From positions 1 to 32,845 of the IMG/VR virus record IMGVR_UViG_3300017773_000070: a stretch of DNA of 32,845 nucleotides; one strand, written 5' to 3'. The notes below the pieces were generated by a model. That model was given only the letters and a program-made list of their open reading frames with translations, had not been told where the DNA came from and ran no database searches. This document shows positions 3,337 to 31,206 of the stretch, piece by piece. The stretch comes from a virus. Within the stretch, counting starts at the first letter, position 1; each line of letters opens with the position of its first letter. The position numbers were made by a program, and so were the translations under genes.

Positions 3337-4694
3337 TAGAATCCTCTCTGAACATCAAGCGATTTAAGAGTTTCATGTTCAACAAACGCCATAGAAATAT
3401 CTATCTCATTTGGTTGACCATCATTTCTAAATGAACCACCTGTAGGATTAATTGTTGCATTAAAACTTCTTAAGTAACAAGGTTTTATCTTAGGTAAATT
3501 TTTATTTCTTCTTCCTTGAAACTTAAATATTATTTTAAATGCATTCGGAAAATGATAACCTATGTCTGCAGAAGCAGAACCGAAGTTTACTGGAAATCCT
3601 CTTGGATATAACTCTTTTCGAAAATGTTTAATTATTTTTTGTACAGTTCTTGCTTCTTCTGGAGAAGTTGCTATAAGTTTAAATTGAAATTGAAACTCAC
3701 GTATATTAACTCCTCTAAATATAGCTCTTACATTAGGATTAACAATAAACCTATTAGCAAGAGTTGTTGCGTTTTTAAAAGATTGCAATGGCATAAATCT
3801 GTTGTTTACTTTTGCAATTGCAAGTTTCAATGAGTCTGTGACTCCTGGTGAGAGATTTTTACTAGTATCTCCACCACCTAAGAATGTATCAATTAAAGCA
3901 GTTCCTTCTCCTTTGATTGCTTCAGCAGCCGCGCCTAAACCTGACATGCCACCTTCTATTCCAGCTAATGTTGAAGCACCTAGTACGCCTAATTCAGCAT
4001 TTGTGTCATATCCAACGTTATCAACAAAAGACATACTTGGAGGAAAGTACATTGTAACTGTTGGTTCACCTTTCTTAGGAAAAAAGCTTGTGCCAGATCT
4101 TACATTTGAAGAAGATTTTTTAGCAGTAGCAGCCTCAACCTCAGTATCTTTTTTAGCTGCAAAATTTAATGAAGCAGCGTCATCAGCAAAAGCTGCCGTG
4201 TTGGCTCCTCCGCTACCATCTGCAATATCTGCAGAGAATGTTGTTGGTTGATTAGTAGCACCTAAGAAAGATGCATTTGCATCATTTGCTTGTTGAAACC
4301 CTGGATTTTTACTTCCAAAATCATCAACTAATCCTAAGCCTGCAGCTTGATTTCTAGCATCATCAGCTTCTTTTAATCTGGCCTGTTTAAGATTATCTTC
4401 TTGTTGTTTCATATGAGACTTTTGGCTCTTACCGGATTCAGGTGTGGTATACTCTAAAGTTTGAAATGATACAGTCGCAGCATAAGCAGGATTACCTGAT
4501 ACATCCAATGGATATTCTAATGTGCTACCACCAACACCAAAGTTTTTAAACAAAGCACCTAATAACGATTGACCAGCTTCTGCAAAATCATCGAGTGCAC
4601 CTTCAACGTTACTAAAGTTTTTTATTGGATTCTTTAATCCACCTCCGCCTTTAAGTGTTTCTCCTAAAGGTCCAGCTTTATCTAGTATTCCCAT
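3336..4694 (-). CDS. gp48: gp48-like baseplate tail-tube cap
   Basis: First gene of the minus-strand late operon. In T4, gp48 caps the hub and with gp54 nucleates the tail tube. The C-terminal third carries FRGVNIREFQFQFKLIATSP, EARTVQKIIKHFRKELYP and YHFPNAFKIIFKF, which is the pattern of gp48 and related tube-fold proteins. Residues 90-200 are a low-complexity Gln/Ala/Asp-rich insertion that makes it 452 aa against 364 in T4. The ATG follows AAGGATTACAC; the leader from the late promoter at 4733 is about 32 nt. Confidence is good for a tube-cap protein; gp48 rather than gp54 is chosen from position and size. Confidence 0.8.
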   Translation of the reverse strand: MGILDKAGPLGETLKGGGGLKNPIKNFSNVEGALDDFAEAGQSLLGALFKNFGVGGSTLEYPLDVSGNPAYAATVSFQTLEYTTPESGKSQKSHMKQQEDNLKQARLKEADDARNQAAGLGLVDDFGSKNPGFQQANDANASFLGATNQPTTFSADIADGSGGANTAAFADDAASLNFAAKKDTEVEAATAKKSSSNVRSGTSFFPKKGEPTVTMYFPPSMSFVDNVGYDTNAELGVLGASTLAGIEGGMSGLGAAAEAIKGEGTALIDTFLGGGDTSKNLSPGVTDSLKLAIAKVNNRFMPLQSFKNATTLANRFIVNPNVRAIFRGVNIREFQFQFKLIATSPEEARTVQKIIKHFRKELYPRGFPVNFGSASADIGYHFPNAFKIIFKFQGRRNKNLPKIKPCYLRSFNATINPTGGSFRNDGQPNEIDISMAFVEHETLKSLDVQRGF

Positions 4695-5260: not shown

Positions 5261-5851
5261 ATGAGTAATTTATTTCAAAGATTAGAACTTGAAGCATTTA
5301 GAAAAGGTATTACACCTCGAACACAAGAATCTCGAGACTGGTTTCGTCGTCGTGTACAAAGACTTACAAGAGTGAATCGTGAAGCATTAATGAGAGAAGA
5401 TGAGATTAATAAAGTAAGTAGTCCTTTGCTTGGTAGTATGATGATGTTTTTCTATGATCCTAAGCTTAAAGACAAGCTTCCATACTACGATACTTTTCCA
5501 TTGGTTATACCAGTTGAAAAAGCAGAAGGTGGATTTAGAGGTTTAAATTTACATTACATTCCTCCAGTTTTAAGAGCAAAGTTTTTGGATAGTTTACTTG
5601 ACGTAGTTAACAATAAAAAATATGATGAGTCAACGCGATTTACTTTAACATACAGTTTACTTAAAGGTGCATCGAGATTTAGATTCTTTCAACCGTGTTT
5701 TAAACATTATCTTTTAAATCACGTTAAATCTAGGTTTGCTCAAGTACCAGCACCTGAATGGGAGATAGCTACATTCTTACCAACAGCAAGTTGGAAGAAA
5801 GCTCCTGCAGGTAGAGTATATTCAGATTCGAGGAACATATCAAATGGCTAG
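5261..5851 (+). CDS. Conserved T4-like structural-region protein, function unknown
   Basis: A 196-aa protein in the head/tail operon. It opens MSNLFQRLELEAFRKGITPR and continues with LMREDEINK, a run MMMFFYDPK, then PYYDTFPLVIP and GGFRGLNLHYIPPVLRAKFL. I recall this pattern from other marine T4-like phages, where it sits beside gp4 and has no assigned function. No membrane segment or nuclease motif is visible. The 5' end abuts a TATAAATA box; the 3' end overlaps the next gene by 8 nt. In T4, gene 2 (DNA-end protector) lies near gene 4, so such a role is possible, but nothing in the sequence shows it. Confidence 0.8.
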   Translation: MSNLFQRLELEAFRKGITPRTQESRDWFRRRVQRLTRVNREALMREDEINKVSSPLLGSMMMFFYDPKLKDKLPYYDTFPLVIPVEKAEGGFRGLNLHYIPPVLRAKFLDSLLDVVNNKKYDESTRFTLTYSLLKGASRFRFFQPCFKHYLLNHVKSRFAQVPAPEWEIATFLPTASWKKAPAGRVYSDSRNISNG

Positions 5852-6536
5852 TAGTGTAGATGAATTAAAAGCTTTAGCTAATACAAAATTAGGATTTGCT
5901 CGAGCAAATAGGTTCTTGGTCACAATGCCAACTAGCTTCGGCGGAGGCGGCGGATTATTAGGTGGTATAATTGGAATGTTAACAGGCGGCGGAGGTGGAG
6001 CATCTGGTAGAGAATTAAATATTCTTTGCTCGAATGCAACTATGCCCGGCAAGGTTACATTAACTAATGACAGAAGAATCGGAATGGAATTTCAAAAAGT
6101 AGCATATGGGTATGCCGTCGACGATGTTGCAATGACTTTCTATTTAATGAATGATTACGGCGTAAAAGAATACTTTGATGCATGGAGAAATACTGCAATT
6201 CCAGAAGATGGAGCCAAAGCATTTACAAGTAACTACAAGAGTCAGTATGCTAAGTCTATAACTATACACCAGTTACGTCAACCATTAAAAGGATTTAGTA
6301 AACAGGTTGGACCAATTAGGTTTAGTGGTGGAATAGGTGGAGGATCAGTTTATTCAGTAGAGTTACTGGAAGCTTTTCCTGTGTCAACTAGCGCAATAGA
6401 ATTAAATAACGAATTAGATGGATTAGTTCAATTAACTGTAACTTTTGCATATACAAATTGGGCTCGCGCAAGTAGCACTCAAGGATTTATTAACATGGAT
6501 ATTGATACACCTCTCGGTGGAATTGATATATTATAA
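5844..6536 (+). CDS. gp54: gp54-like baseplate tube initiator (tail-tube fold)
   Basis: A 230-aa tail-tube-fold protein. The signature runs ARANRFLVTMP (residues 18-28), a glycine-rich loop (30-54), LNILCSNATMPGK (58-70), DDVAMTFYLMNDYGVKEYFD (90-109) and an end strand QLTVTFAYTNWA. These match the shared fold of T4 gp19 (tube) and gp54 (tube initiator). Its place next to gp26 and gp29, without a sheath gene nearby, favours gp54; gp19 or a tube paralogue is the alternative. SD GAGGAAC precedes the ATG, which overlaps the previous gene by 8 nt. Confidence 0.7.
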   Translation: MASSVDELKALANTKLGFARANRFLVTMPTSFGGGGGLLGGIIGMLTGGGGGASGRELNILCSNATMPGKVTLTNDRRIGMEFQKVAYGYAVDDVAMTFYLMNDYGVKEYFDAWRNTAIPEDGAKAFTSNYKSQYAKSITIHQLRQPLKGFSKQVGPIRFSGGIGGGSVYSVELLEAFPVSTSAIELNNELDGLVQLTVTFAYTNWARASSTQGFINMDIDTPLGGIDIL

Positions 6537-6549
6537 GGAGTAGAATAGT

Positions 6550-7257
6550 ATGGGATTACCTAAATTAAATGACGTACCAAAGTATAGAGCTGTGGTACCT
6601 TCAACAAATAATGAAATTACATTTAGGCCTTTTTTAGTTAAAGAAGAGAAAATTTTATTAATAGGTTTAGAAACACAAGACGCTATGCAAATAGCTAGTG
6701 CCGTAATGGACACGGTTAAATCATGTGTATACGAAGAATTAGACATGAGGTCTTTAACTTCATATGACATTGAATTTTTATTTTTAAAGATAAGAGCAAA
6801 GTCAGTTGGAGAAACATCTAAGTTGGTTTTTAAATGTAAAGAATGTGCAACTGAAAATGATGTTAGAGTTAATATTGACGATATAAACATAAAAGTTGAT
6901 AACAGTAATAATAAAATTAATATAACTGATAAGATAATAGTTGAAATGAAGCATCCTACTTTTAGTCAAATGGCGGCTAGTGAATCACTAAACGAAAAAT
7001 CTCCAACAGTTCAGGTGTTTGGATTAATAAGAGAATCAATAAATTCTGTCATGACAGATGATGAAAGAATTGATATGAGAGATATTGAAAAAGAAGAATT
7101 TCAAGAATTTATCGAATCAATGACACAAGAACAGTTTACTAAGATAAGAGAATATATTGAAAATATACCTAAGTTATCTCATGATATTGAATTTGATTGC
7201 ATTAAATGTAACACACATAATGAAATTAAAGTGGAGGGCCTGCAAAGTTTTTTATAA
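6550..7257 (+). CDS. gp26: gp26 family baseplate hub / tail-assembly chaperone (0-frame product)
   Basis: A 235-aa member of the T4 base-plate protein family (gp26/gp51). It has a conserved N-terminus (LPKLNDVPKYRAVVPSTNNE) and two CxxC pairs, CKEC near residues 97-100 and CIKC near 217-220, likely a zinc site. In T4, gp26 is needed for hub assembly. The frame ends with tandem stops TAA TAA at 7255-7260 straight after a T-TTT-TTA heptamer, and the -1 frame is open onward to 7433. I therefore read this as the short product of a frameshifting gene, analogous to lambda gpG. SD AAGGAG lies 10 nt before the ATG. Confidence 0.9.
   Translation: MGLPKLNDVPKYRAVVPSTNNEITFRPFLVKEEKILLIGLETQDAMQIASAVMDTVKSCVYEELDMRSLTSYDIEFLFLKIRAKSVGETSKLVFKCKECATENDVRVNIDDINIKVDNSNNKINITDKIIVEMKHPTFSQMAASESLNEKSPTVQVFGLIRESINSVMTDDERIDMRDIEKEEFQEFIESMTQEQFTKIREYIENIPKLSHDIEFDCIKCNTHNEIKVEGLQSFL
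7248..7254 (+). promoter_or_regulatory. -1 ribosomal frameshift heptamer T-TTT-TTA
   Basis: In the gp26 frame the codons are AGT TTT TTA TAA, so the heptamer is in the correct X-XXY-YYZ register for -1 slippage. It is directly followed by two in-frame stops, then, 6 nt after the heptamer, by a perfect 10-bp stem. After slippage the next codon is ATA at 7254-7256, and no stop occurs until 7431-7433. Confidence 0.82.
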
Positions 7258-7433
7258 TAAGTCTATCTCATAATTCATTAAGTAATTATTATGAAACTAA
7301 TTTTAACTTAATGCAACATCATAAATATTCTTTAAGTGAGATAGACAATTTGATACCATGGGAAAAAGAAGTTTATGTGGGAATGCTAATAGATCACATA
7401 AGAGAAGAAGAAAGCAAACAAGAAAGAAGATGA
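7254..7433 (+). CDS. -1 frameshift extension of gp26 (GT-like fusion C-terminus)
   Basis: A 59-codon frame ended by TGA, reachable without break only from gp26 by -1 slippage; the fusion would be 294 aa. It reads IISLSHNSLSNYYETNFNLM, then QHHKYSLSEIDNLIPWEKEV and an acidic/basic helix ending KQERR. The pattern from SLSHNSL onward resembles a small protein I recall just before the tape measure in marine T4-like phages. The only in-frame ATG is at 7311, after the first 19 residues, and lacks a good SD. The -1 frame is closed upstream at 7227-7229. The stop is one base before the tape-measure ATG. Alternative: independent start at 7311 giving 40 aa. Confidence 0.75.
   Translation: MISLSHNSLSNYYETNFNLMQHHKYSLSEIDNLIPWEKEVYVGMLIDHIREEESKQERR
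7261..7346 (+). promoter_or_regulatory. RNA stem-loop stimulating the frameshift
   Basis: GTCTATCTCA at 7261-7270 pairs perfectly with TGAGATAGAC at 7337-7346. Inside the loop CATTAAGT at 7276-7283 pairs perfectly with ACTTAATG at 7306-7313, giving a two-step helix. The 6-nt spacer to the slippery heptamer is in the range used by known -1 frameshift stimulators. Confidence 0.75.
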
Positions 7434-7434
7434 C

Positions 7435-9132
7435 ATGGCAAGAAGATATTCAACATTAGGTGATGTTATTGATCAACTTAAAACGAACAATGACTCTAGC
7501 ATAGATACAACGCAAGCAGTTGATAGTTTACATAATACTGTATCAAGTTACTTTGTTAAAAAATCTAAAATAGATCTTGAAGCATCTAGAGAAAAATCTA
7601 CCGCCAAAGCAAAAAAGGCGGCTGGATCTGGTATCACTGAACAAGTTAAAAAAGCAGATAGTGGTTTACTTGGAAGCTTAAAAGGTTTAAAGGGAATAGG
7701 TTTCTTAGGCGGTCTTGCATTATTGGCTAAAGTTGTTGGAGGCGGTGTCATAAAGTTATTGGCAGCATTAGGACCTGCAGGTGTTGGATTAGGTGCATTC
7801 TTTCTAGGATTATCTAGTGCAGAAGCCATCATACAAAAATTTGCATCAAAGGATGCTGGCGAAGGTATAAAAAAATTATTACAAAATTTAGCTGCAGGTT
7901 TAAGCGCTTTTGGTAAAAAAGAATTCTTAGCATTAGGTACCGTTTTAGCAGCAGGTATGATATTCCCAAAAAGTACTGTAAAAGGTCTAGGAGCAGTTGG
8001 CTTAGGCATGGCTGCATTTTTTACTTCATTAGCTGGAGCAGATGCTCTAATGTCTATGATGGGCGGTGATCAAGGAGAAAACTTAAAGAAATTATTAGAA
8101 AATCTTGCAGGTGGTCTTAGCGCATTTGGATCTAAAGAGTTTGCAGCACTAGGTGCTGCTATGGCATCAGGCGCGTTATTAGGTTTATTTCCTGGAGGTG
8201 CTCAAGCAGCTGCATTAGGAATTGCATCAATAGGTGTCGGTATTGGTGCTTTTATTACGTCTTTAGCTGGATTTTCTAAGCTAGGTGCTGTATTAGGTGT
8301 TGATGGAAGTGCATTTAAAACTTTAGTTACTAATATAGCTGGAGGATTAACAGCATTAAATAAAGTAGAAGCCGAAGGTTTATTGAGTAAAGTCGGTGCA
8401 ATTGCTGGAATTGGACCTGCTTTATTATCAGCAATGGTAGGCTCAGGTGGTGTTCAGTTAGTTGATAATCTAATCGATGGCGCTAAAAAAATTGTTAACT
8501 TTTTATTTGGAACAGACCTCAAAGATCAAAAGACAACCAGAGCAAATATGATTCAATCCATGGTTGATGCTATGGAACCTCTCAAAAGTATTGATATATC
8601 AGTTGCTGACAATTTAGATAGGCTTAGTGGTGCATTAAAGAAATTTATGGATAACTTAAATGACTTAGGAAAGATAAGTCTTAAGGGATTTGAAAAAAGT
8701 GTCAAAGACATGATTGCTGGAATGGGTATTCAGCTTGATTTAATTGATAAGATGGCTAATGGTGGAAAAGTAGGTAGTGGATATTTTGATGGAATACCTG
8801 AAGTTGATTTTGGCAAAGGATTTTTATCTCCAGACTTGAAGGTCGATGATTTAGTCAAACAGATGAATAAAGTAAATATGATATTAGGTAAGACTAATAC
8901 AATACAACCTGCTAATCAACTCCAAAAAAATAATATAGATCCAGTTGATACTGGAAAATCTACAGCTCCTTCTGGTACAACTAACAATAATAGTAACTCT
9001 TCAAATAATAATGTAGTAGTAGCACCAACTAACAATCAAACAATAAGCAATAAAAATACAACAAATGCTTTAATATCAAATGGCCCTGCAGTTGATATAC
9101 AGGACCAGTTGGTTGTTGGATTTGGTACTTAA
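7435..9132 (+). CDS. gp29: gp29-like tape measure / baseplate hub protein
   Basis: A 565-aa protein (T4 gp29 is 590 aa) that sets tail length and lies within the tube; assigned from size, composition and place after gp26. The N-terminus is polar and helical (residues 1-80). Residues 85-340 hold three imperfect tandem units, each with a Gly/Ala-rich hydrophobic stretch (GLGAFFLGLSSAEA, GLGMAAFFTSLAGAD, GIGAFITSLAGF) and a helix of the type KKLLQNLAAGLSAFG, starting near residues 142, 214 and 291. Residues 500-545 are an Asn/Ser/Thr linker before a short tail. Hydrophobic repeats are typical of tape measures that insert in membrane on ejection. It meets gp32 tail to tail with a 4-nt overlap. 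Confidence 0.8.
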   Translation: MARRYSTLGDVIDQLKTNNDSSIDTTQAVDSLHNTVSSYFVKKSKIDLEASREKSTAKAKKAAGSGITEQVKKADSGLLGSLKGLKGIGFLGGLALLAKVVGGGVIKLLAALGPAGVGLGAFFLGLSSAEAIIQKFASKDAGEGIKKLLQNLAAGLSAFGKKEFLALGTVLAAGMIFPKSTVKGLGAVGLGMAAFFTSLAGADALMSMMGGDQGENLKKLLENLAGGLSAFGSKEFAALGAAMASGALLGLFPGGAQAAALGIASIGVGIGAFITSLAGFSKLGAVLGVDGSAFKTLVTNIAGGLTALNKVEAEGLLSKVGAIAGIGPALLSAMVGSGGVQLVDNLIDGAKKIVNFLFGTDLKDQKTTRANMIQSMVDAMEPLKSIDISVADNLDRLSGALKKFMDNLNDLGKISLKGFEKSVKDMIAGMGIQLDLIDKMANGGKVGSGYFDGIPEVDFGKGFLSPDLKVDDLVKQMNKVNMILGKTNTIQPANQLQKNNIDPVDTGKSTAPSGTTNNNSNSSNNNVVVAPTNNQTISNKNTTNALISNGPAVDIQDQLVVGFGT

Positions 9133-22861: not shown

Positions 22862-23826
22862 TTCATGCTCCCTACTTTTTTCTTAGACATAAATTTTGTA
22901 TCAGCTGGTGCAATCATACCTTTCATGCCAGAACCGGGATCATCCTTGCCGTGATAGCCTTGAGCAAACCCAGGTTTCAGTTTCTTAACTTTTCCACCTT
23001 TAGCTTTAAATGCTGCAATAGCCGCGTCATGAGTTCTCTTTTCTGCATCAGACATTGCTTCTTTTTTCATAAGTCTGTTTGTAGCTCTGTCCATACCGCG
23101 TACACGCATTGCAGCTTTTCTTTCAGGACTTTTCATATAGTCTTGATCAGGCCCGCCTAAACGGCTTATTGCATCTTTATTACCTTGTTGTTGGCCTTTG
23201 TGATACATATCTCTTGCAGCCTTACCCATATAACTTTTTGCAAGATTCTTAGATATCTCTTTGACTTGTGTATTGTCTTTAATATCTTTAGTTAAAGATT
23301 TAACTTGACCTGAATGAACTTTTACTGCGCCTTTAAGACCTTTAATAACCTTCATAACTGTGGCTGTGTCTTTTTTATCAAGTGCTTCATTTTGTTTTCT
23401 AAGAACTGCTGCAACTTGAGGATGCTTATGAATATCTTTGGAAAGTCTATTCATAGCTTTAACTGCACCTGTCATATTACCTTTTGCATACCTAGGATCT
23501 GATGCAATACCGATTGCTTGTTTAATATGCTTAGGATCATGAGCTTCACCAAATGATTCTTTTTTCTTTTTACCTTTACCACTAAGATCTGAATCAGCAC
23601 CATAATAAGTGCCTTTACCTTTTCCTATATAAGAGTTGACTCTTGCCATTGCCCACTGCTGAGGTGTAGTTCCTGGCCTGTGGCCTGTTCTCCAAGCAGC
23701 CATGCCTCTATTGTATACCTTTTTAAGTGTTCCATAAGATATACCAGACTTAGCCGATTTCTTTTTTAAGCCTTCATTTTCGAGTAACTCCTCGAAAGCT
23801 TTTTCATAAGTTGAAAATTTAAGCAT
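22858..23826 (-). CDS. Basic modular protein with CTS-like N-terminus
   Basis: A 322-aa protein. It begins MLKFSTYEKAFEELLENEGL, comparable to the capsid-targeting N-termini of T4 internal proteins. Residues 20-82 (KKSAKSGISYGTLKKVYNRG, MAAWRTGHRPGTTPQQWAMA, RVNSYIGKGKGTYYGADSDL) form a domain widespread in marine phages, of unknown function. Residues 97-145 (DPKHIKQAIGIASDPRYAKG...KAMNRLSKDIHKHPQVAA) and the C-terminal block (DAAIAAFKAKGGKVKKLKPG) are further shared modules. GGAG lies 8 nt before the ATG, which overlaps the upstream gene by 8 nt. Likely virion-packaged, by inference. Confidence 0.8.
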   Translation of the reverse strand: MLKFSTYEKAFEELLENEGLKKKSAKSGISYGTLKKVYNRGMAAWRTGHRPGTTPQQWAMARVNSYIGKGKGTYYGADSDLSGKGKKKKESFGEAHDPKHIKQAIGIASDPRYAKGNMTGAVKAMNRLSKDIHKHPQVAAVLRKQNEALDKKDTATVMKVIKGLKGAVKVHSGQVKSLTKDIKDNTQVKEISKNLAKSYMGKAARDMYHKGQQQGNKDAISRLGGPDQDYMKSPERKAAMRVRGMDRATNRLMKKEAMSDAEKRTHDAAIAAFKAKGGKVKKLKPGFAQGYHGKDDPGSGMKGMIAPADTKFMSKKKVGSMK

Positions 23827-25009
23827 CTGCTTTACTCCTGTTTTTAATTTTTCTTACTTTGGCTCGATCTAACATTCTGGCATGTTTCATCTTATCGACC
23901 ATTTTTTCTCTTTCAATTTTTTTCTTTGCAACCTCTACTGCATCTTCACCGTACATTCTTCTATACTTTAAAGTATGCTTACTTAGTTTTGTTTTAGCGC
24001 CTGCATCACCTGGTGCTTTCTTATAAGCTGCTGGATTATCATCATCATATTTTGAATACTTTTTAAAATGTGCAAGTCTTTTCTTCTTAGTTGATTTTGC
24101 TACTCCTTTATAGTAAGGTGCAGGTTGTGTACCCGGTGCTTTCTTAACATCTGGATCTTGCTTAACTTTTTTAGGTGCTTCTTTTTTCTTTTCTAATAGT
24201 TCTATATCTGACAACCATTTTCGATATAGCTTTCCACCAGATTCTACGATAACATAATTAGTTCCAAGACTGGTAACACTAGCGAGCTCGTCACTGCCCA
24301 TGACAGTAACATGATCACCAATATTAAACAAATTTCCTTTAACATATGCCTCTCTTTTCTCAGAGACAGGCTCGAAATGTAACTTATTATAATATTCTTT
24401 TTGTTCTTTAAGTCCCATACCTTTTCTTACTTCATTATATACTTTCTTTGCGTCTGCATTTGATACATTCCGTGGCAGCCCCTGTGAGAATTGTGTGAAG
24501 TCTCCTTCACCTGCTAGTGATCTCATCTTAGATGCTGACATTCCACTAATATCGTCTGCATCGGGGTCTCTGTCTCCGGCTGAAATTACGTTGATTTTAT
24601 TGAAGTTATATAGACCGTGTCTACCTTTAACTCCATTATATTTTTTTAATAAGGTGTTGAACTCATTTATTCTATCTGATCCAACTACCATTGTTATATT
24701 TTTAAATCCGTCATTATACATTTCAGTGACCGCGTCAAAAACATTTTTAACTTTCTTATCAAGCATAACACTTCTTGCATGCTTAGGAAAAAACTTACGA
24801 ACTGTTTTAACTTTATATTTAAAATCCAATGGATTTTTCTTTTTATCTGTTGATTGCGATAAGTAAACTCTATAAGGATTCTTACCAGATTTTTTTGACA
24901 ACTCATTCATTAATTTTTCATGACCAGTTGTAGGAGGATTCATACGACCAAAAGTAAAGAATGCGGTCTTCTCTTCCTCTATCAAATAATGTTTAAATGA
25001 ATTTATCAT
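23819..25009 (-). CDS. Nucleotidyltransferase (NMNAT/cytidylyltransferase-like) with modular basic tail
   Basis: A 396-aa protein. Residues 15-200 are a HIGH-type nucleotidyltransferase fold: FFTFGRMNPPTTGHEKLMNE with GRMNPPTTGH at 21-30, SQSTDKKKNPL, VVGSDRINEF at 108-117 and the second signature SGMSASKMRS at 155-164. The family transfers adenylyl or cytidylyl groups, for example onto nicotinamide mononucleotide to make NAD; the substrate cannot be read here. Residues 200-396 are a lysine-rich tail with shared marine-phage blocks (PAPYYKGVAKSTKKKRLAHF, SKHTLKYRRMYGED). The first 13 residues, MINSFKHYLIEEE, look like a capsid-targeting sequence. TAATG coupling to the upstream gene. Confidence 0.85.
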   Translation of the reverse strand: MINSFKHYLIEEEKTAFFTFGRMNPPTTGHEKLMNELSKKSGKNPYRVYLSQSTDKKKNPLDFKYKVKTVRKFFPKHARSVMLDKKVKNVFDAVTEMYNDGFKNITMVVGSDRINEFNTLLKKYNGVKGRHGLYNFNKINVISAGDRDPDADDISGMSASKMRSLAGEGDFTQFSQGLPRNVSNADAKKVYNEVRKGMGLKEQKEYYNKLHFEPVSEKREAYVKGNLFNIGDHVTVMGSDELASVTSLGTNYVIVESGGKLYRKWLSDIELLEKKKEAPKKVKQDPDVKKAPGTQPAPYYKGVAKSTKKKRLAHFKKYSKYDDDNPAAYKKAPGDAGAKTKLSKHTLKYRRMYGEDAVEVAKKKIEREKMVDKMKHARMLDRAKVRKIKNRSKADA

Positions 25010-29917: not shown

Positions 29918-30108
29918 TATAATTCTCCTTCTACTTTACACATTGGGGTTATTGCTGTTTTATCAATATAGTCATTATTATAGTAAGTTCGTGTTATGAC
30001 TTCTTTTACTAGTTGACCATTACGAATTTTAAACGTTGTGAGTTCCCTAGACAGTACACCTTCACTGTCTAGGAGATCAAATGCTCGTTGCAAAGGACCA
30101 TCGGTCAT
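29917..30108 (-). CDS. Small early protein, function unknown
   Basis: A 63-aa protein, MTDGPLQRAFDLLDSEGVLS, RELTTFKIRNGQLVKEVITR and a polar end. Codons for LDSEGVLSR form a perfect 10-bp inverted repeat (see 30046-30073). It is coupled to the DUF932 gene by a one-base overlap. Not recognised. Confidence 0.7.
   Translation of the reverse strand: MTDGPLQRAFDLLDSEGVLSRELTTFKIRNGQLVKEVITRTYYNNDYIDKTAITPMCKVEGEL
30046..30073. repeat. Perfect 10-bp inverted repeat in a coding region
   Basis: CCTAGACAGT, 8-nt spacer, ACTGTCTAGG. On the minus-strand message this is a stable hairpin about 35 nt after the start codon of the 29917-30108 gene. No T-tract follows on either strand, so it is not a terminator. 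Confidence 0.7.
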
Positions 30109-31067
30109 TATGCAACCTCTGCAAACTTTAATGCTGTGTTAAGAGCATTTCTTTTTTTGATTTGGTTTCCACCAAACCATGAAGAGTAGAGTCTGTTATC
30201 AGAGTTTCTACCTTGTAGGTGATCAGTAACATAAGTCACTGAGTTGAAAGCCTGCCACCAAGAACCTTCGGCATACTTTGCGCCAGGTTGTTGTTCCAAT
30301 GCATCGTAACATGCAATGGCGTTCTTGGAAAGAGTCTCCATGGAAAGAGATTTATTTTGAACTCTCTTATCCGCAGTTCTTGGATAAACTGTATTGTAGA
30401 ACTCGACAAGAGAATCGATGTTGTATCTCTTGGAACCGAGAAACTCAGCCATTTCTTTATAAGTCTTCAACTTATCAGAAGCAATGCCGAGAGCTTTCTT
30501 AACTTCGTTTGCATTGAATTCAACTCTATGGCCAACTTTTACAGACCTTTGAGCCTGTGCCTCGAGTGAAAGGGAAAGTGTATTGTTACATACAACTCTG
30601 ATTGGTGTAAATCTAATATCAATAGACTTACCATATAAGTGAGGGTTTGAGAAAAGCAAGTAAGACTCAACTTTATCACCACCGAAAAGATCAAATGACT
30701 CTTTGACTTTAGCCAAAGCCCATACCATCTGTCCACCTTTAAGTGAACCTGCTGTATGCATTTCCATATCACCAGCAAGAACATACTCTGAAAAGAATTC
30801 AAAAGCTTGTTCGTTCTGAACTGGATTCCAGATCTGACCAATGTTAGTCAAGACTTTATCGTCTGAACTTCTCACTAAGGCTTTCATGCCTGTTGCAACT
30901 TTCTTACCGTTTGGTAGAGTTGCGTATGAATCAATCTGATCGACCGTCCAGTCAAGACCAGCTTTCTTCATCATTTGGTTCGGTGTAAGATCGTTGCTGA
31001 CTTCTACACCTAGGCCGTGCCACGGTACTTCACCTGCATACGCCATTGTTTCTACTTGATGTGCCAT
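30108..31067 (-). CDS. DUF932 phage/plasmid-like protein
   Basis: A 319-aa protein; the ATG at 31065-31067 is preceded by AAGGAAGGAATTAT, while a longer frame to 31121 has no SD and overlaps the mini-gene. DUF932 pattern: TMAYAGEVPWHGLGVEVSND near the start, IWNPVQNEQAFEFFSEYV, SNPHLYGKSIDIRFTPIRVV, CNNTLSLSLEA, and QNKSLSMETL...GSWWQAFNSVTYVTDHL at the end. The family is widespread on phages and plasmids and its function is not established. Part of the early cluster behind the 31554 promoter. Confidence 0.92.
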   Translation of the reverse strand: MAHQVETMAYAGEVPWHGLGVEVSNDLTPNQMMKKAGLDWTVDQIDSYATLPNGKKVATGMKALVRSSDDKVLTNIGQIWNPVQNEQAFEFFSEYVLAGDMEMHTAGSLKGGQMVWALAKVKESFDLFGGDKVESYLLFSNPHLYGKSIDIRFTPIRVVCNNTLSLSLEAQAQRSVKVGHRVEFNANEVKKALGIASDKLKTYKEMAEFLGSKRYNIDSLVEFYNTVYPRTADKRVQNKSLSMETLSKNAIACYDALEQQPGAKYAEGSWWQAFNSVTYVTDHLQGRNSDNRLYSSWFGGNQIKKRNALNTALKFAEVA

Positions 31068-31086
31068 AATATAATTCCTTCCTTGG

Positions 31087-31206
31087 CTATTGATTAATTT
31101 TTTCGATACAACCGGGTGCAAGACCTTCGGTTGTACATGGATCTTCGATTGCGCCGACTACCATGACTGCGGCTAATATTATAAAGAATGCGATAAATGT
31201 TTTCAT
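31087..31206 (-). CDS. Secreted mini-protein with two cysteines
   Basis: A 39-aa protein: MKTFIAFFIILAAVMVVGAI, a clean hydrophobic signal or membrane segment, then EDPCTTEGLAPGCIEKINQ with two cysteines nine apart. The ATG overlaps the upstream TAA (TAATG). It may be exported and form a disulphide hairpin in the periplasm, or stay anchored. No family recognised. Confidence 0.65.
   Translation of the reverse strand: MKTFIAFFIILAAVMVVGAIEDPCTTEGLAPGCIEKINQ

Follow-up and report, generated by a model that had tools for sequence, protein, structure and literature searches.

A probable -1 frameshift at the end of gp26 in marine relatives of phage T4, with a predicted short and a predicted long tail assembly chaperone

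The window analysed here, a viral stretch of 32,845 nucleotides (IMG/VR record IMGVR_UViG_3300017773_000070), contains a gp26-like gene whose neighbours match the profiles of head closure, DNA end protector and tail tube families, identifying the locus as a T4-like tail module (Table 1). The gp26 frame closes with AGT TTT TTA TAA TAA, and the heptamer T-TTT-TTA ahead of the tandem stops stands in X-XXY-YYZ register, base for base as described in the original prediction, which had proposed a programmed -1 frameshift at this point. As also stated there, the -1 frame, closed at 7227-7229, stays open from there until a TGA at 7431-7433, with the next ATG at 7435, and the first 19 post-slip codons are devoid of ATG, GTG and TTG, the first start being codon 20. 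Read across the junction, gp26 and its -1 extension would give a predicted fusion of 294 aa (TAC-NC, lambda G-T-like). The extension had been called protein-like, which holds in that it is coding, but it is not anonymous: it belongs to a recognised family, the cyanophage gp51 family PHROG 634, which is matched by 528 phage records. No other plus-strand ORF end in the window combines an in-register heptamer at most 12 nt from the stop with a -1 extension of at least 30 codons. Two minus-strand heptamers were rejected as chance-like. One, an A-AAA-AAT at 31103, stands near the end of the ORF preceding a DUF932 / PHROG 1221 gene of unknown function (30108-31121, minus strand), and was rejected because this gene has its own ATG and Shine-Dalgarno (SD) sequence. 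The other, at 24706, is apparently in a spurious ORF inside a larger gene (23819-25009).

Table 1. Features of the gp26-gp51 locus and its immediate surroundings in the window.
Feature	Position	Strand	Evidence or remark
Tail-tube / tube-initiator family gene, upstream; tail-module context	5844..6536	+	PHROG 45 match
gp26-like gene, short chaperone form (TAC-N, lambda G-like), 235 aa	6550..7257	+	PF12322, 2.9e-58; PHROG 150, 2e-58
GGAGGG, SD-like element within gp26, proposed upstream stimulator	7233..7238	+	9-10 nt 5' of the slippery site
Slippery heptamer T-TTT-TTA, -1 register	7248..7254	+	T-TTT-TTN in register in 169/169 loci with a separate gp51 ORF
-1 extension, gp51 domain, 59 aa + stop	7254..7433	+	PHROG 634, E 1.4e-26
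Downstream stem, 5' arm	7261..7271	+	begins 6 nt past the heptamer; kept in 11 clusters
Inner hairpin in the long loop, 7276-7283 paired to 7306-7313 (8 bp)	7276..7313	+	minimum-free-energy fold of the window
Downstream stem, 3' arm of the window's clade	7336..7346	+	pairs with 7261-7271
Match to the alternative 3' arm (Pro-Trp-Glu-Arg codons), unused in the window	7358..7368	+	arm paired in many other phages (register 133)
565-aa ORF directly downstream, presumed tape measure protein	7435..9132	+	position only

The 565-aa ORF directly downstream is presumed from its position to encode the tape measure protein. It had no PHROG or Pfam match, and a shallow profile revealed no detectable similarity to T4 gp29. 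A long ORF directly follows gp51 in most loci, and in phiN3 and pf16 the downstream ORFs give weak tape-measure matches. The ORFs 3' of gp51 differ greatly from phage to phage, the one in the window having a high content of Gly, Ala and Leu and recurring hydrophobic blocks.

Comparison across relatives was based on 177 distinct gp26 loci whose 3' end is complete, taken from viral contigs and isolates, of which 169 have gp51 as a separate ORF; clustering at 70% identity gave 121 clusters. As anticipated, the heptamer is conserved and the -1 frame constant, and no conserved start codon emerged from the alignment. All 169 of these loci have gp51 in the -1 frame with no stop across the junction, and the junction heptamer is T-TTT-TTT, -TTC, -TTA or -TTG, always in register. 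An in-register T-TTT-TTN was found in 121/121 clusters, against 52 expected from the codon usage of each gene (log10 P about -51), while elsewhere in these genes only 15 of 168 Phe-Phe/Leu(TTR) pairs are slippery. The T-run at the site comprises 6 T in 90 loci, 7 in 41 and 8 in 38, and all four isolates fetched later, outside the sample, have the heptamer. The suppression of synonymous change that had been expected around the junction was also seen. Pelagibacter phage Mosig (L001, gp26 at 3379-4110) and a further locus (L075) have the gp26 stop about 24 nt past the heptamer and retain both heptamer and -1 frame; judging from these two, the fixed element appears to be the heptamer and not the gp26 stop.

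An element complementary to the 3' end of 16S RNA lies at a fixed place upstream, at a Glu codon starting 14 nt before the heptamer (GAGG). The mean best anti-SD pairing at this element was -5.83 kcal/mol, compared to -4.88 kcal/mol by synonymous resampling (121 clusters), and the Glu codon is GAG in 36/61 cases versus 676/2694 elsewhere (Fisher 4e-8). On the sequence level, we propose GGAGGG of the window as an upstream frameshift stimulator.

Downstream of the heptamer, the exact 10-bp pairing of GTCTATCTCA (7261-7270) with TGAGATAGAC (7337-7346) was reproduced, as was the second 8-bp stem in the loop, and the main stem grows to 11 bp if one G-U pair is allowed. Perfect 10-bp inverted repeats with a loop of at most 100 nt start at only 7 of the 32,845 positions of the window, so that the chance of such a repeat 6 nt past the heptamer is about 2e-4 per position. 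Across phages the 5' arm is the same, at +13 to +23 counted from the heptamer's first base, and there are two alternative 3' partners for it (loop 64-86 nt). The window's clade uses an arm at +88 to +98, found in 11 clusters and including a compensatory G-C to C-G change in one locus (L143), and in many other phages, among them the closest isolate by gp26, phage C48C1, with a 9-bp stem, the 3' arm covers the Pro-Trp-Glu-Arg codons at +110 to +120 (register 133, 39 clusters). Only two of 47 registers had a marked excess of long helices, namely 133 (33% vs 4% in the synonymous null) and 111 (9% vs 1.4%). In register 133 wobble positions are opposed, and two silent-silent pairs outrank all others among the 198 wobble pairs tested, with phi values of 0.65 and 0.59 (mean correlation 0.03, sd 0.15). 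GC content was ruled out as the cause of this covariation, since cross pairs of the same sites gave phi values of 0.0 and -0.25. The predicted conservation of the stem is thus seen as covariation at silent sites, although the stem is not found throughout: 69/119 clusters have at most a weak one, shorter than 8 bp in either register. RNAalifold on all 119 clusters gave no common structure, as expected given the two registers, and per-register tests were used instead; a search of Rfam gave no match. We regard the stem as a covariation-supported candidate for a bacterial frameshift stimulator, and the cassette of SD-like element, heptamer and stem may be new to the literature.

Phage T4 itself offers a natural control. 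Atkins et al. 2016 described the G-T frameshift as conserved in long-tailed phages "except T4" (PMC5009743). Both gp26 and gp51 of T4 match PF12322 and PHROG 150, and gp51 additionally matches PHROG 634 at its end. By sequence, the two T4 proteins are paralogues and T4 gp51 is a continuous fusion of the gp26 and gp51 parts, whose alignment with the predicted fusion of the window crosses the junction almost undisturbed; being continuous, T4 gp51 shows that such a fusion exists in nature as an ordinary protein. Those T4-type gp26 proteins that end in GLKEFF have the codons GAG/GAA TTC TTT or GAG TTT TTT, and none of ten T4-type genes is slippery, i.e. Phe-Phe was kept and the heptamer lost. Phe-Phe alone therefore does not explain the heptamer, and this control together with codon usage rules out amino-acid conservation as its cause. 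A tree of the gp26 domain, without a supported root, has three groups, with each of the two T4 types in a clade of its own (gp51 with support 1.0, gp26 with 0.84); the frameshift may have come before the duplication. Unlike T4, Vibrio phage nt-1 (L087, 1656-2671), a member of the Straboviridae, keeps the slippery one-gene layout and has an ATG at the gp26 stop, making it a possible intermediate between frameshift and split genes.

The AlphaFold2 model of gp26 (pLDDT 93) had its best structural matches in 3fgx (Z 8.1), the HK97 tail assembly chaperone 2ob9 (7.9) and 3klu (YqbN, 7.3), followed by the next at 4.3, and the matched region spans gp26 residues 1-88 to 1-95. YqbN and its relatives are prophage tail chaperones as well. 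Foldseek alone was weak on the same model (E 1.0, probability 0.82). The predicted fold is suggestive of an HK97-type tail chaperone; Z scores of 7-8 alone are middling, and it is the identity of the neighbours that counts. Frameshifted (-1) tail assembly chaperones were reportedly described by Xu, Hendrix and Duda in 2004. The proposed equivalence to lambda G/G-T gains support from gene position, from the predicted gp26 fold when compared to HK97, and from the short and long paralogues of T4. The likeness comprises two ORFs before the presumed tape measure, a slippery site ending the first, a -1 extension and a chaperone fold, whereas the window differs from lambda in its T-TTT-TTN heptamer and in having an SD-like element and a covarying long-range stem. 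The three-part layout also resembles the E. coli dnaX and IS911 cassettes, where an SD-like element about 10 nt upstream and a heptamer are followed by a stem a few nucleotides (5-9 nt) downstream; the window matches it with 7233-7238, 7248-7254 and a stem from 7261. IS911 has a branched long-range structure comparable to the stem of the window (PMC5009743). However, the genes are unrelated, and the stem of the window type has its long loop and a 3' arm that depends on the clade. Similar loci, with a conserved T-run and a -1 extension before the tape measure, often mis-annotated, have been described for Pakpunavirus Adele / Vandenendeviridae and Andersonviridae (PMC12846349); they belong to different phage families, with a GTTTTT motif.

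It is thus very probable that -1 programmed ribosomal frameshifting produces a short and a long tail assembly chaperone here, as originally predicted. Strong support comes from frame and heptamer in all 169 loci, from the stimulators and from the T4 control. Ribosomes translating gp26 would arrive at T-TTT-TTA and be held there from both sides, by GGAGGG pairing with the anti-SD about 10 nt upstream and by the long-range stem 6 nt downstream. In a minority of them both tRNAs, Phe and then Leu, would re-pair one base back and translation would go on through the gp51 domain in the -1 frame, so that one gene would give a majority of short gp26 (235 aa) and a minority of gp26-gp51 fusion (294 aa). 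By analogy to lambda G/G-T, the short and long forms might coat the tape measure protein, recruit tail-tube subunits and come off before the virion is complete. In T4 and close relatives the same pair would come from separate paralogues, gene 26 for the short form and gene 51 for the long one. We infer slippage in vivo, its rate and the contacts with tape measure and tube. Counting against frameshifting, U-UUU-UUA and U-UUU-UUU are far less shift-prone than A-AAA-AAG in E. coli (PMC5009743). We lean slightly towards a broader joint reading, in which the three-part signal sets the ratio of short to long form, the stem has alternated between two 3' arm sites within the gp51 frame, T4 genes 26 and 51 descend from one frameshifted gene by duplication, and the T4 "hub assembly" factors are tape-measure chaperones.

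The same fusion protein would also result if RNA polymerase added a U in the T-run and the transcript were translated in the ordinary way, and the site is indeed a T-run. However, none of the runs reaches the 9 A/T described for bacterial slippage (PMC5009743) and over half have only 6 T. A polymerase would, moreover, need neither NNT before TTT-TTN nor a fixed SD-like element nor a covarying mRNA stem, and we consider transcriptional slippage very unlikely. Many GenBank records imply instead that a small separate gp51 is initiated near the gp26 stop, independently or by coupling. A well-placed start for the -1 frame was looked for, and no conserved one was found among 119 clusters: 89 of them have no ATG, GTG or TTG up to His6, i.e. 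before the conserved Leu-Ser-His, and 46 have none up to Phe17 (before Asn-Phe), so the conserved residues Leu4, His6, Leu9, Asn16 and Phe17 precede any start codon in many clusters. Initiation at codon 20 in the window would remove conserved residues, and T4 has the gp51 domain only in fused form. Some phages do have an ATG (TAATG in Vibrio nt-1, ATGGCTCAT in P-SSM2), but starts are not positionally conserved and the heptamer is kept even in those phages. Despite the SD-like element upstream, the many records calling a separate gene and the precedent of IS911, which pairs frameshifting with AUU initiation, a separately initiated gp51 therefore seems very unlikely.

A further alternative accepts the frameshift and assigns the stem another role, such as control of the translation of the next gene, mRNA stability or similar. 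Such a role would fit the position of both 3' arms towards the end of the gp51 frame, close to the next gene, as well as the long loop and the 69 clusters without a stem of at least 8 bp. On the other hand, a 5' arm 6 nt from the heptamer has the usual spacing of a stimulator, and the branched structure of IS911 is a comparable stimulator (PMC5009743), which makes a role apart from frameshifting rather unlikely, though not negligibly so.

Programmed frameshifting into gp51 would explain why T4 looks different, with its two products hard-wired as paralogous genes while most marine relatives still use the frameshift. A short and long chaperone pair would also make sense of two T4 factors that have long been called only "hub assembly chaperones". 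Vladimirov, Gautam and Davidson reportedly identified the tail assembly chaperones of T4-like phages in 2022, with gp26 as the short and gp51 as the long form. PMC10885494 cites their study in stating that some T4-like phages have the short and the long form as separate genes, and PMC12846349 cites it for poly-T slippery signals in T4-like phages. Going by these citations, the core idea of frameshift and chaperones is already published in some form at the level of the T4-like group, and the system concerned involves the same protein family (PF12322, PHROG 150 and 634), with two genes in T4 as opposed to one slippery gene in the window.

The frameshift reading would correct the annotation of gp26 and gp51 in cyanophage and pelagiphage records. 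None of nine marine relatives with an annotated gp26 whose regions were inspected marks ribosomal slippage. The gp51 part is unannotated in the records of S-CAM4, S-CAM8, ACG-2014b and ACG-2014d, truncated in those of Mosig, C48C1 and Sf-CH5, and given its own start in those of S-RIM32 and P-SSM2.
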